Below are positions 28,675-40,260 of a DNA stretch of 40,260 nucleotides, piece after piece. The notes under the pieces are model-generated. The model saw only the letters and a list, made by a program, of their open reading frames with translations. It did not search any database and was not told the DNA's origin. The stretch spans positions 1 to 40,260 of the forward strand of contig CALLAA010000181.1 of the NCBI GenBank assembly GCA_938002955.1. Reading direction: 5' to 3'. Positions within the stretch are counted from its first letter, which is position 1. The number at the start of each line of letters is the position of its first letter. The translations under genes were made by a program, and so were the position numbers. Origin of the DNA: an uncultured Acidimicrobiales bacterium. GTDB taxonomy: Bacteria; Actinomycetota; Acidimicrobiia; Acidimicrobiales; SHLQ01.

Positions 28675-30005
28675 CTCCGAGGCATTCGTTCAGCACCTTC
28701 GAGGATGCTCCAATGCCACGGCTCCGACTCAAGGTTCTCAAAGCCATACGCCGGTGCATTTCGGGCGAGCCAGACAAAGGCCGAGCTGTCTCGCGACTGA
28801 ATCGATGCGCCGTTGAAGGTGAAGTCGATCGCTCTTCCCTGCTCATGCTTGGAAAACCCCGGCCGTGCCGTTGGTGGAGCACACTCGAAGACCGGGCGAT
28901 GCCAGATGTCGTAGTCGGTGCCGCCGCAATGGGCGGCGCGAAGCTCGATCTGTAGCTGGATTGGCCGGTAGCCCCAGCCGGCGAGGTTTACCCCTTCGTC
29001 AAACGCCTTGTCGAAGAGGGCTTGGGTCTGTTCGGCGATGTCTTCGTGAACCTCGATCTGGAAGAACGGTTCGACGTCGAGCGGGATGAGGACCGGCAGC
29101 TCTTCGCCGGTCTCTTCGTCAATTTCGGGGTCGGGGAGGTCTCCGGGACGGTAGAAGTCGAGGCGAACAATGTCGTCGAGATCGACGGGGGTTGGAATCT
29201 CGACACCATTTCGTCGTGCTGCTGCGGCGACGCGCTGGTTTATCGACGTCTGCTTGTCTCGGATCTTGGTGGCGAGTTCGACGTCGCGCTCTTGCAAGAT
29301 TGCAGCTTCGGCGATCTGGGCTTCGAGACGGATCTCGGCTGCGGTGACGACCTTGGCTTGTCGGTCGAGGGCTTCTTCCAGTGCGAGCGTACGGTCCTCT
29401 ACTTCGGCGAGGAACTGTTCTGCGCTTTCGACGGCGTTCCGCTCCGATTCGAGCAGCAGTTCGGCTTCGAATTCCAGCGCACGTAGCCGGTCGATTCCGT
29501 CGCCCAAGGTGCCCGTCTGGAGTTCGAGCAAGTGGATAAAGCGTGCGGACTCACCAGGATCGTCGGAAAGCACCAATTCGGTGACGTCGTCGCCACTTCC
29601 GCTTTCTCCCGTGAAGCTCGATACCGCCAAATTGGTGAGGTGTTCGCGTACGAGCACCGTCTCCTGCAGGACGAGGTCTCGTTCGTCACGAGCCTGATCG
29701 ATCGATGCGAGGGACGCCTCATAGGCAGTCTCGGCCTCCTGCAAACGAATGCGTTGCAGGTTCACAAATGCGGCCAGGTCGTCGAGTGCTTGGGTGACCT
29801 CTTCGACGGTTGCGGTGACGATGTCGATATCGCCGACGGCGAGCGCGGCCTCTTTCGCGGTGCGCTCGCGCTCTTCCTTCAGATCTTCGATCTCTTGGTC
29901 ATCTTCGGAGTACTGGGCGCCAACCGTCACGGTCGCAGCAAATAGCGCAACAAAAACGAGAAAAGCGCAGGCCAGAGACCGCGCAGAAAACAGGAATCGA
30001 AACAC
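28671..30005 (-). CDS. Secreted coiled-coil VanY-type peptidase, copy A
   Basis: 444 residues from GTG at 30005. Signal peptide (about 1-30), long coiled coil (about 35-270), then an M15B/VanY D-Ala-D-Ala carboxypeptidase-like domain. Zinc/catalytic residues are all present: SKHEQGRAID (His387, Asp394) and EPWHW (Glu428, His431). A conserved Cys pair (AHCGGTDYD...FEC) probably forms a disulfide. An acidic Pro-rich insert (about 300-340) distinguishes it from copies B and C. Coiled-coil N-termini fused to wall hydrolases resemble PcsB/RipC enzymes controlled by FtsEX, so a cell-division hydrolase is plausible. Third gene of the tandem set; stop shares CTAA with menC. Confidence 0.9.
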   Translation of the reverse strand: MFRFLFSARSLACAFLVFVALFAATVTVGAQYSEDDQEIEDLKEERERTAKEAALAVGDIDIVTATVEEVTQALDDLAAFVNLQRIRLQEAETAYEASLASIDQARDERDLVLQETVLVREHLTNLAVSSFTGESGSGDDVTELVLSDDPGESARFIHLLELQTGTLGDGIDRLRALEFEAELLLESERNAVESAEQFLAEVEDRTLALEEALDRQAKVVTAAEIRLEAQIAEAAILQERDVELATKIRDKQTSINQRVAAAARRNGVEIPTPVDLDDIVRLDFYRPGDLPDPEIDEETGEELPVLIPLDVEPFFQIEVHEDIAEQTQALFDKAFDEGVNLAGWGYRPIQLQIELRAAHCGGTDYDIWHRPVFECAPPTARPGFSKHEQGRAIDFTFNGASIQSRDSSAFVWLARNAPAYGFENLESEPWHWSILEGAERMPRS

Positions 30006-36777: not shown

Positions 36778-36851
36778 GGGCCGTTAACTCAGTTGGCTAG
36801 AGTGCCACCTCGACATGGTGGAAGTCACAGGTTCAAGTCCTGTACGGCCCA
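36778..36851 (+). tRNA. tRNA-Val (GAC)
   Basis: The cloverleaf folds completely: acceptor GGGCCGT/ACGGCCC, D stem ACTC/GAGT, anticodon stem CCACC/GGTGG, T arm ACAGG/CCTGT with loop TTCAAGT, discriminator A. The 7-base anticodon loop is TCGACAT, giving GAC (Val) with C instead of the nearly universal T at position 33. CCA is not encoded. From base 36807 onward the gene also forms the left 47-bp repeat of an inserted element. Confidence 0.88.
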
Positions 36852-36853
36852 CG
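36807..36853 (+). repeat. attL-like 47-bp direct repeat (tRNA 3' part)
   Basis: Identical over 47 bp to 38579-38625. It covers the anticodon arm, variable loop, T arm and acceptor 3' strand of tRNA-Val plus two bases. Flanking sequences on both sides differ, so the repeat ends are sharp, as for an integrase crossover duplication. Confidence 0.93.
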
Positions 36854-36905
36854 CTGAAAAATCAACACTTTACTGGTTGAATTCGCTCGAAATCATCGAG
36901 TCTGT

Positions 36906-36941
36906 GACATATCCAAAGCGGCGATATGTCATCAATATGTC
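36906..36941. promoter_or_regulatory. Left ATATGTC motif cluster
   Basis: ATATGTC occurs at 36924-36930 and 36935-36941, and inverted (GACATAT) at 36906-36912, starting 53 bp inside the left repeat. A palindrome CGCGTAG-TAG-CTACGCG follows at 36948-36964. With the matching cluster at the right end these look like arm-type recombinase or accessory-factor sites. Confidence 0.55.
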
Positions 36942-37001
36942 GAGATTCGCGTAGTAGCTACGCGCTCAAATCTCACTCTCGGTTGAGATATGAACCCGTG
37001 A

Positions 37002-37019
37002 ATGGTGGAAGTCACAGGT
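37002..37019 (+). repeat. Internal 18-bp copy of the tRNA-Val anticodon/T-arm sequence
   Basis: ATGGTGGAAGTCACAGGT is identical to tRNA bases 36814-36831; flanking bases differ. It lies inside the element, 148 bp after the left repeat. It is too long for chance and suggests a remnant junction from an earlier insertion or deletion at the same site. Confidence 0.85.
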
Positions 37020-37070
37020 GGAGGTTCGTAGCTAGCGAGCCTTCGATGGGCATTGCTGCAAGCCGCCTGG

Positions 37071-38315
37071 CTAGAACAAGCTAGGTGGACCCTCAGGGTC
37101 TGGCCGTGGAGCGACCTGTCGACGCGTGAATTGTGCGAGAAGAGGGACTGCGAGCGAGTACTCTCCGTGACGACTTTTGTAGACGAGCCCCTTGGTGATG
37201 AGTTGTTGGAAGACCTGGCTTAAGTTGCTCGGACTGAAGCCCGAATCCAGAACTACCTTGGACTTCGCAGCGACATCCTGAATCGAAAAGTAGTCAGGGT
37301 CTCCTTCAAGGGCCGCGATTGCCGTGAGTGCGTCGCGTTGTCGTTCCGTAAGAATGTTCCAGCGGCCGGCGAAGAAGTCTTCGTCTAGCTTGGAAACGAC
37401 AGGACCGAGCGGAACCTCGCCGAGATCTTCCCCACGGTTATGACGGCCAACCCATACGTCGAAGACCTCGCGACAGAAGAACTGAACAAAGTATGGGTAT
37501 CCGCTTGATTCTTGCCAGATCGACTCAATGGATGGGTCGTTGAACTGTACGGCTGTGTCCTGGGTCGGCTTCAGAATAGCCTCTCGTGTCTCGCTGCTGC
37601 TCAGAGTGCCAAGCGTTTGAACAGTAAACATGCGCTCGGAATAAGTCCTTGACTCGACAAGCTTGGAATAGAGCGTGGGGAGTCCGGTAAGGACGAGCAT
37701 CATCAGGACGTCGGAATCCGACCGCTGAATCGATTGGAAGACTTCGAGAAGTAGAGCGATCGGCAACTCGGTTCGATCACTATGGTCTTGTAGATTCTGA
37801 GCCTCGTCGTACGCGAAGACGATTCCTCTCACACCCGAGCCTGTCAAAGTCGATTGAACTGCTCTCAGGACGGCCTTTATCTTGTCCGAAGGCAATCCGG
37901 GCGTTTCGTCGTAGAAGCTGTGGAGGTCTGCGTACGAGAGTCGATGAGTTGTCTTCGTCGCCTCAGAACCGAACCCAACGGGGATTCGCGTCTCCTCTCC
38001 GAGAACAACTCCGCTCAATGCGGCCGCTAAGTCGGTCATCAGCCTGACGCAGAGGTTCTCCTCGGTGTGGGTTGATCGCTCCGAAATGTCTGCCCCCACC
38101 CACAACCAGCGGGCCTCTGACGCTATCGGGTGGTAGTCCTCCAAGAGTACGGTCTTACCGACGCCGCGTAGCCCTGTGAGAATGAGATTCTCAGTTACCG
38201 GTTGTTGTTCCAGAAGCTTCGCAAATTGCTCTTTCTCCTCCATTCGGCCAGCAAGAAAGGGAGGGCGATGCCCTGCCCCCGGGCGGTAGGGATTCGTCAT
38301 CTTCTCAGTAACCAT
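37071..38315 (-). CDS. AAA/STAND-like ATPase with C-terminal winged helix
   Basis: 414 residues from ATG at 38315; ATG at 38300 (MTNPYRPGAGHRPPFLAGR) matches the family start as well and neither has a good ribosome site. NPYRPGAGHRPPFLAGR is the N-terminal signature of a family of stand-alone predicted ATPases (COG1672/AAA_16-like). Walker A is GLRGVGKT (48-55), Walker B IVFAYDEAQ (Asp170, Glu171), and a sensor-like strand LVLTGLPTL follows. The last 100 residues resemble a winged helix (LTERQRDALTAIAAL). Function unknown. As the only cargo of a tRNA-inserted element it could be a defence, maintenance or regulatory gene; nothing in the sequence decides. Confidence 0.85.
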   Translation of the reverse strand: MVTEKMTNPYRPGAGHRPPFLAGRMEEKEQFAKLLEQQPVTENLILTGLRGVGKTVLLEDYHPIASEARWLWVGADISERSTHTEENLCVRLMTDLAAALSGVVLGEETRIPVGFGSEATKTTHRLSYADLHSFYDETPGLPSDKIKAVLRAVQSTLTGSGVRGIVFAYDEAQNLQDHSDRTELPIALLLEVFQSIQRSDSDVLMMLVLTGLPTLYSKLVESRTYSERMFTVQTLGTLSSSETREAILKPTQDTAVQFNDPSIESIWQESSGYPYFVQFFCREVFDVWVGRHNRGEDLGEVPLGPVVSKLDEDFFAGRWNILTERQRDALTAIAALEGDPDYFSIQDVAAKSKVVLDSGFSPSNLSQVFQQLITKGLVYKSRHGEYSLAVPLLAQFTRRQVAPRPDPEGPPSLF

Positions 38316-38578
38316 ACCTCTACGGTATTTCTTCTAAATTTAGATTGCAACCTAAATTTAGGAGAATACGAATGCGGCTTAGGTCTGGGTGTCTGGCCAT
38401 ATGTCATTTCGGGACGAAAAATATGTCCGAAATATGTCCAAAAGCGCGGTTCAGCATCACGAAACAAGCGGCGCCTAGCGCTCGATCGTGAGTCCCAAGT
38501 GTCCAAAAATCATTAATTTCTCAATCGAAATGTTACGATTCAAAATGCCGATTGGATAGTCTCGAAACTTGTAGGTTT
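38316..38578. promoter_or_regulatory. AT-rich upstream region of the ATPase with twin palindromes
   Basis: The palindrome CTAAATTTAG occurs at 38334-38343 and 38352-38361, centres 18 bp apart, 19-46 bp before the ATPase start. This is a likely operator or promoter for autoregulation. Further out, ATATGTC occurs at 38399-38405, 38421-38427 and 38432-38438. The remainder to 38578 is AT-rich with no credible gene. Confidence 0.6.
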
Positions 38579-38625
38579 ACCTCGACATGGTGGAAGTCAC
38601 AGGTTCAAGTCCTGTACGGCCCACG
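38579..38625 (+). repeat. attR-like 47-bp direct repeat
   Basis: Exact copy of tRNA-Val bases 36807-36853. It cannot form a tRNA because the 5' half is missing. If the element brought its own 3' end to restore the tRNA, this copy is the displaced original chromosomal end; the terminator 28 bp downstream supports that. Confidence 0.93.
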
Positions 38626-38652
38626 TATCGAACTTCGTTCGAACGAGAAGAT

Positions 38653-38686
38653 AATCGGCTCCTCCGGGAGCCGATTTGTCGTTTTC
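38653..38686 (+). terminator. Terminator hairpin, probably of the original tRNA-Val unit
   Basis: AATCGGCTCC (38653-38662) pairs perfectly with GGAGCCGATT (38667-38676) around TCCG, followed by TGTCGTTTT. It lies 28 bp after the displaced tRNA end. It may also serve the minus-strand gene ending at 38699. Confidence 0.8.
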
Positions 38687-39994: not shown

Positions 39995-40260
39995 GCACAA
40001 GGGTTGTGGCGGAGCGCCGGGACGATTGTGGCGGACCGCCAGGAGCGTTTTGGCCCCCTAGGGCCAAAAGGCGGGAAGTGAGGAGGCGCCACAGGCCAGC
40101 ACAGGGTTGTGGCGGACCGCCAGGAGCGTTTTGGCCCCCTAGGGCCAAAAGGCGGGAAGTGAGGAGGCGCCACAGGCCAGCACAGGGTTATGGCGGACCG
40201 CCAGGAGCGTTTTGGCCCCCTAGGGCCAAAAGGCGGGAAGTGAGGAGGCGCCACAGGCCA
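39995..40260. repeat. 81-bp tandem repeat array with internal palindromes
   Basis: Units at 40026-40106, 40107-40187 and 40188-40260 (73 bp, cut by the window edge) are almost identical; one G-to-A change is seen at 40190. A degenerate partial unit lies at about 39995-40025. Each unit contains TGGCGG-A-CCGCCA and TTTTGGCCC-CCTA-GGGCCAAAA, which can form hairpins. There are no unique spacers, so this is not CRISPR. Reading frames through it exist only because 81 is a multiple of three. It appears to be non-coding; the array continues beyond the right edge. Confidence 0.9.

Follow-up and report, generated by a model that had tools for sequence, protein, structure and literature searches.

We analysed a stretch of 40,260 nucleotides (contig CALLAA010000181.1 of assembly GCA_938002955.1, from an uncultured Acidimicrobiales bacterium), here called the window, in which a short segment with one gene for an AAA+ ATPase follows a tRNA-Val gene. 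ARAGORN predicted one intact tRNA-Val(GAC) gene at this locus, and its 3' part recurs farther along as a direct repeat. The two 47-nt copies are identical throughout, with a start-to-start spacing of 1772 bp, and a perfect repeat of this length is far beyond chance. These exact repeats, the first lying in the intact tRNA gene, had been described in a first-pass annotation, and both the 47/47 identity and the ARAGORN and Rfam predictions bear the description out. The features of the locus are as follows (att, attachment site).

36778-36852, + strand: intact tRNA-Val gene, anticodon GAC, the presumed integration target (ARAGORN; Rfam RF00005, 63 bits)
36807-36853, + strand: left direct repeat (attL-like), the tRNA-Val 3' part plus one base, 47/47 identical to the right copy
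36854-38625, no strand: apparently inserted element of 1772 bp (one repeat copy included), delimited by the repeat spacing, by a drop in guanine-cytosine (GC) content and by tRNA-Val genes followed directly by the displaced flank in the relatives G008, G009 and G010
36854-37070: left arm, with ATATGTC at 36924 and 36935 (11 bp apart) and an inverted copy at 36906
37002-37019, + strand: exact 18-nt piece of the tRNA core, the third and only partial copy, found by repeat search; this piece has three positions in the window
37071-38315, - strand: AAA+ ATPase gene, 414 amino acids, Walker A GLRGVGKT, Walker B YDEAQN
38329-38366: putative operator upstream of the ATPase gene, formed by two perfect CTAAATTTAG palindromes with 18-bp spacing
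38367-38578: right arm, with ATATGTC at 38399, 38421 and 38432 (11-bp phasing)
38579-38625, + strand: right direct repeat (attR-like), a displaced tRNA 3' fragment identified by the 47-nt repeat match
38626-38676, + strand: displaced region downstream of tRNA-Val, with a TCGAAC-TTC-GTTCGA hairpin and a terminator-like stem at 38653-38676

Insertion at the tRNA-Val gene

The ATPase gene is the sole gene-sized open reading frame (ORF) between the repeats, contains no stop and has both Walker motifs intact. The longest other ORF lying wholly inside the element encodes 104 amino acids, and no integrase was found within it, so the earlier description of one ATPase gene without an integrase holds. 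The interior was also correctly described as AT-richer, with a GC content of 50-58% in 500-bp windows on or overlapping the element vs 59-66% in those outside it (from position 30000 on). As in tRNA-gene islands, an intact tRNA gene and a displaced 3' fragment lie in direct orientation. The terminator-like stem is located just past the right repeat, and none was found directly after the intact tRNA-Val gene. No inverted repeats (arms of at least 14 nt) pair the two ends of the element and no second gene-sized ORF is present; we rejected a DNA transposon or insertion sequence because terminal inverted repeats and a transposase are lacking. The 7-mer ATATGTC occurs six times in the two arms (Markov mean 0.07), several copies being phased by 11 bp, and these copies are possibly arm-type sites of an integrase. 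The 18-nt piece of tRNA core at 37002-37019 is a possible scar of an earlier insertion.

The tRNA-Val region was matched in all ten other genomes of the genus, in G001 and G003 as a diverged variant only (74-84%). A 41-nt core of the tRNA 3' end is present as a single copy in seven of them (G002, G004, G005, G006, G007, G008 and G009), at two contig ends in G010 and in two copies in the window's genome; it is absent from G001 and G003 within three mismatches. In G008 and G010 the tRNA-Val gene continues straight into CGTATCGAACTTCGTTCGAAC, the hairpin that follows the second repeat in the window, and G009 has the same junction with one base changed. Genes like those on both flanks of the element surround tRNA-Val in G007 and its diverged variant in G001, in both cases without the element and with the tRNA in reversed orientation. 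G007, G001 and G008 have a right-flank-like gene close to the left-flank gene, which disfavours an assembly chimera, and we rejected that explanation on this ground. In G006, different DNA without an att copy follows tRNA-Val until the contig ends about 850 bp on; it is possibly another insertion at the same site. The empty-site comparison proposed in the first-pass annotation thus found tRNA-Val without the element in the genus, with direct hairpin junctions in three genomes.

Two tRNA-derived copies in direct orientation could also come from an old tandem tRNA-Val array with a gene between its copies. This reading fails because element-free versions of the site are found in the genus and none of its other genomes has a second core copy, except at the contig ends of G010. 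The right copy has no tRNA 5' part and it alone is followed by the terminator-like stem, GC content drops between the copies and no sampled genome of the genus has such an array. We consider it very improbable and rejected it, given the single core copy in each of seven relatives. Judged by these genome comparisons, insertion into the tRNA-Val gene is well supported, and the earlier proposal of an integrative insertion without its own integrase stands.

Three side observations concern the same locus. Neighbour order and the orientation of tRNA-Val vary between species of the genus (L134, L135, L136, L137 and L143), and the locus is rearranged. Directly after tRNA-Val in G010 (L141, contig C101, 1-260) there are tandem repeats of about 84 bp that include its last bases and the hairpin. 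The DNA right after tRNA-Val in G006 (L133, contig C58, 2679-3526) contains lipoprotein-like and trypsin-like ORFs, named by eye.

The ATPase and its paired operator

The ATPase matched the Pfam families AAA_16 (1.4e-9) and AAA_22 above cut-off, with no Orc/Cdc6 model among the listed matches, and matched NCBIfam models only far below cut-off. Its residues 5-400 matched phrog_6841, a PHROGs family of unknown function, at E 2.3e-43, a full-length profile match. The only PADLOC match was PDC-S01, at E 0.007 and over the N-terminal part; we rejected membership in a known PADLOC defence system on this value, and the suggestion in the first-pass annotation that the gene is a defence candidate was not substantiated.

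An AlphaFold2 model of the ATPase (alignment A1) had a mean predicted local distance difference test score of 85.6 and a predicted template modelling (TM) score of 0.80. Foldseek searches of the PDB with this model returned Orc1 of Aeropyrum (1.3e-11), SSO1545, PABY2304 and archaeal and eukaryotic Orc/Cdc6 proteins, with RuvB further down. The four best matches had E values of 1.3e-11 to 1.4e-10, 15-18% identity and TM-scores of 0.42-0.52 by query length. The model has an Orc1/Cdc6-type AAA+ fold with a C-terminal winged helix at moderate TM-scores, suggesting that the C-terminal region is winged-helix-like. As modelled, the likeness to Orc1/Cdc6 and SSO1545 appears to be one of architecture rather than of family membership.

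GTDB contigs were scanned with six peptide patterns, which yielded 273 stretches; 192 of these were relatives and the best 80 were kept; IMG/VR added 17 relatives, some on Acinetobacter-phage-like contigs. The window's ATPase has a mean identity of 50% to 79 relatives, which share 60% among themselves, and the key Walker residues are invariant across the aligned relatives. The 70 cellular rows of the tree cover 15 named phyla, with two rows lacking a phylum. Phylum labels change 28 times on the tree (minimum possible 14, shuffled mean 44.2), which points to some vertical signal and much mixing between phyla, with the proviso that bins of metagenome-assembled genomes can mislead. Within the window's class, seven of 395 genomes, the window's own included, match the ATPase at E <= 1e-60. 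Six of the ten other genomes of the genus have a remote relative (best 31% identity) and none has a close one. Relatives were found in 108 plasmid records, all below 60% identity and at about 30% in the 30 listed, and none was found in E. coli genomes. Two relatives, L033 and L129, contain in-frame stops. Some copies thus appear to decay.

The two CTAAATTTAG sites at 38334-38343 and 38352-38361 are the only ones in the window at up to one mismatch (shuffles mean 0.05). Allowing two mismatches, CTAAATTTAG was found within 150 bp upstream of the ATPase gene in 86 of 89 loci (11.0 expected from shuffles) and downstream in 7 of 89, a count from which 14 near-copies and loci with short flanks had been excluded beforehand and in which some near-copies remain. 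Two or more sites lie upstream in 64 of the 89 loci, against 0.5 in shuffles, and site spacing was 18 bp in 61 cases and 28 bp in 8. The loci lacking a site are L066, L071 and L146, and two plasmid relatives at about 30% identity also lack the operator. The ATPase may bind this operator, the best hint of which is that a double palindrome of fixed spacing accompanies the gene. As the double operator is conserved, the regulatory step lends itself to direct in vitro tests.

The gene at other loci and the recombinase question

Elsewhere, the ATPase gene has no conserved neighbours: in a clustering of neighbouring proteins, the ATPase cluster covered 77 loci and the next-largest 7. The housekeeping domains of Pfam lead among its immediate neighbours, and the 141 of these included PADLOC mad8 in three cases, mad2 in two and the other families shown in one each (raw counts). 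In one genome of the window's class (G247, locus L145), the gene lies just before hsdM (N6_Mtase 1.1e-58, HsdM_N 7.3e-26). An 89-bp piece of the start of the same hsdM gene, inverted, was seen upstream of the ATPase at L147 and L148; a search for an empty site of the L148 copy gave no clear one. The gene also occurs on IMG/VR contigs such as L203 with flanks matching Acinetobacter phages, in a variable slot before the terminase genes. Three named phages have other small genes in the same slot, which gives no exact insertion ends.

Among 59 pairs of similar loci (at least 80% over at least 1100 bp), 18 share just the gene with 3-118 bp upstream and up to 44 bp downstream, and the remaining 41 share further DNA. 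Common flanking DNA was found in L025/L029, L046/L050/L074, L012/L024, L014/L035 and L003/L015. The 18 gene-only pairs are not independent, forming about seven sets: eight contrast L201 or L038 with near-copies and three involve L032, and the comparable flank is sometimes short (292 bp in L078, 478 bp in L060). The single-gene character noted in the first-pass annotation is therefore more general than was claimed there. A stronger proposal is a one-gene integrative family whose entire mobile unit consists of a self-regulated Orc/STAND-like AAA+ ATPase gene and the paired CTAAATTTAG operator, about 1.3 kb in size, or 1.5-1.8 kb with att arms. Such a family would span at least 15 phyla and would at times insert site-specifically at tRNA or protein-gene ends with recombinases supplied in trans. 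We regard this as distinctly unlikely.

That the ATPase is cargo of a tRNA hotspot, as had been suggested, was not borne out. A tRNA gene lies within 4 kb of the ATPase in 6 of the 80 GTDB loci, none with repeats like those of the window, and we rejected tRNA linkage as a rule for the gene. We could score 102 of 104 loci for close direct repeats, with a maximum of 30.0 bits in 147 control pairs. Clear flanking repeats were present in three: a locus in the genome G139 (L149, 83.5 bits), the window (75.6) and the IMG/VR contig L196 (58.3), where 40 bp are duplicated at the start of an ORF. Four further loci exceeded the control maximum and fell short of the clear cases (L024 36.3, L044 34.7, L012 34.7 and L038 31.6 bits).

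In G139, which belongs to another genus of the class, the ATPase gene interrupts the 3' end of rdgB/HAM1 (Ham1p_like 4.7e-59). The repeats, 110 bp, 73.6% alike and spaced 1495 bp apart, are a duplication of the rdgB 3' end. Three genomes of that genus (G263, G174 and G208) have one rdgB end with the same right flank next and no ATPase there, and G247, of the same genus, has just one rdgB end and carries the ATPase at a different place. By eye, the downstream rdgB copy of G139 and its flank resemble G174 and G263, and the last part of the upstream copy is nearer to G274. This fits an element that may have brought its own rdgB end, although which copy is native is not certain.

Layouts of this kind could also arise by a Campbell-type single crossover, in which circular or captured DNA with a piece of tRNA or rdgB integrates by homologous recombination and no site-specific recombinase takes part. 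The rdgB copies are just 73.6% alike and keep one reading frame, and any circle carrying a piece of the target would give such a layout. However, 47 bp is a short stretch for homologous recombination, which would also leave the phased arm repeats unexplained. Moreover, tRNA genes are classical integrase sites (PMC4383910). We consider this account improbable.

The window's genome (89.5% complete) has three matches to PF00589, all on other contigs. The first belongs to a kind strongly matched in all 11 genomes of the genus, and the second to another kind matched in most of these genomes, G001 having a fragment and G008 no listed match; we infer that both widespread kinds are Xer-like. The third is an integrase-like fragment with two TGA codons (L178, contig C114 of this genome, 1282-1482), seen beside a trypsin-like ORF named by eye. 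No intact integrase of the island type was detected in this genome at its 89.5% completeness. Across the scored loci, integrase-like ORFs occur in the flanks of three of 102, all three confirmed by Pfam and many flanks being short. The scan used a home-made profile of 16 seeds, including two L076 genes that it then found, and may have missed others. At L076 (Coxiellaceae), the ATPase is flanked on either side by a tyrosine integrase gene with an arm-binding domain, the distance to one of the two being 263 bp.

Two accounts of the absent integrase compete. By decay, an integrase-bearing island in tRNA-Val would have lost all but the ATPase gene and two att arms through internal deletion. The phased ATATGTC copies in both arms could be leftover integrase or excisionase sites, the third core copy suggests more than one insertion or deletion, and a broken integrase-like fragment with two TGA codons lies on another contig; cis-mobilizable elements (CIMEs) are described as arising by such decay (PMC5704250). 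On the other hand, the 1.7 kb show no other gene-sized ORF, and stripping of this kind would have to have happened a second time to give the comparable 1.5-kb one-gene layout at rdgB in another genus. We hold decay as a tentative account, at slightly less than an even chance.

Alternatively, the one-gene islet would itself be the mobile unit, moved by the integrase of a co-resident element or phage. The second att-like one-gene case at rdgB, the 40-bp-repeat case in the IMG/VR contig L196 and the scarcity of integrase-like ORFs in the flanks (just 3 of 102 loci) speak for such trans-mobilisation. However, no helper was identified, the arms are unmatched elsewhere in the family, the targets differ (tRNA-Val, the rdgB 3' end and an ORF start) and 99 of 102 loci are without clear repeats, many flanks being short. 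Taken by itself it is unlikely, yet it stays a live rival because of the rdgB case, and for the window's copy we lean slightly to decay.

Two tandem repeats were also seen at the ends of the window. The contig start (1-126) is a perfect 27-bp tandem repeat of 4.7 copies. An 81-bp tandem repeat with 2.9 copies, 99% matches and a GGCCCCCTAGGGCC palindrome (40026-40260) runs to the contig end and adjoins tRNA-Cys.

Proposed origin and known systems

We favour, as the probable explanation, an integrase-less, att-flanked, CIME-like islet at the 3' end of tRNA-Val that carries one portable and probably self-regulated AAA+ ATPase gene. The tRNA-Val repeats would act as att sites. A circular DNA bearing the ATPase gene, a tRNA 3' end and phased ATATGTC sites in its arms would have recombined into tRNA-Val by means of a tyrosine integrase that was either provided in trans or part of a larger element and lost later. 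With its own copy of the tRNA 3' end, the element would have restored tRNA-Val, displacing the original 3' fragment and terminator by 1.77 kb. More weakly, the ATPase may be an Orc/STAND-type switch whose winged helix, on the paired CTAAATTTAG sites, controls its own promoter, and the gene may spread as an accessory gene, likely in defence or conflict between elements. The suggestion that it is an AAA+ switch which regulates itself and is retained for defence or conflict has, in our view, a probability of about one third. Both function and transfer agent are deduced here, the likeliest combination being a passenger gene for regulation or defence, delivered by a site-specific recombinase that has since disappeared or works in trans.

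Several observations weigh against this explanation. The 25-bp right flank is also present elsewhere in the genus and alone is weak evidence of an empty site; because so short a flank occurs at other places, the junction of tRNA and hairpin is supporting evidence rather than proof. The nearest relative, G006, lacks both the element and the right flank. Of 1000 random arms, 7 contain some 7-mer with as many as six copies. The left arm (36854-37070) and positions 38316-38578 were unmatched in 18 other genomes of the family and a 28-nt piece of the att core was in no IMG/VR contig, so that no autonomous parent was found. Clear flanking repeats are missing from 99 of the 102 scored loci, and att-type insertion is therefore not the usual setting of the gene. 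At rdgB, a single gene end without the ATPase is present in G274, but the matching flank follows only after about 0.9 kb of other DNA, and the site is not a clean empty one. The window's ATPase sits on a long branch and deviates at 6 of 117 near-invariant columns (median 0). A role in phages is weakened by a search of 50,697 deposited phage records, which returned one relative, unannotated and at 30% identity; an Acinetobacter-type copy as query found one deposited record, at 27%.

A literature search gave no recognised description of the ATPase, the operator or a one-gene tRNA islet, most subscription papers lying outside its reach. By its kept repeats and its absent recombination and transfer ORFs, the islet would formally be a cis-mobilizable element. 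CIMEs keep attL and attR without recombination and transfer genes (PMC5704250), and Dehalococcoides ssrA islands exist without an integration module (PMC3146451). The islet resembles both in being att-flanked, in its position at the 3' end of an RNA gene, in lacking a recombinase and in having core copies in series. It differs from them in its size of 1.77 kb, in carrying one gene, in the lack of an autonomous element beside it in the window and in the rdgB parallel in another genus. With tRNA islands of the Islander collection it shares an intact tRNA gene at one end and a displaced fragment at the other, but it has no integrase and is below 2 kb. Islander, a standard tool for finding islands, filters out any candidate that has no integrase or is shorter than 2 kb (PMC4383910), so that one-gene islets of this kind would be missed there.

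The ATPase itself is like Orc1/Cdc6, SSO1545 and PABY2304 in that its four best Foldseek matches are such proteins, at the low identities and TM-scores given above. IniR of mycobacteria combines an SSO1545-like ATPase domain with a DNA-binding domain (PMC5760070); it has 818 amino acids and a MalT-like sensor domain, unlike the 414-residue ATPase of the window, which it resembles by fold only. The nearly full-length match to phrog_6841 links the ATPase to phage proteins, but the window's copy is chromosomal, and no close relative turned up among the deposited phages. In the minimal mobile elements of Neisseria, single genes are exchanged between conserved neighbours, at fixed sites and through homologous flanks, whereas the ATPase family has differing neighbours. 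The ATPase is strongly conserved and its operator is kept across phyla, yet it has general Pfam domains only and receives no named function from NCBIfam, PADLOC or PHROGs; so widespread a solitary gene is a ready target for study. What appears new beside these systems, on sequence grounds, is a solitary conserved ATPase gene with a paired operator, found in 15 named phyla and on IMG/VR contigs.

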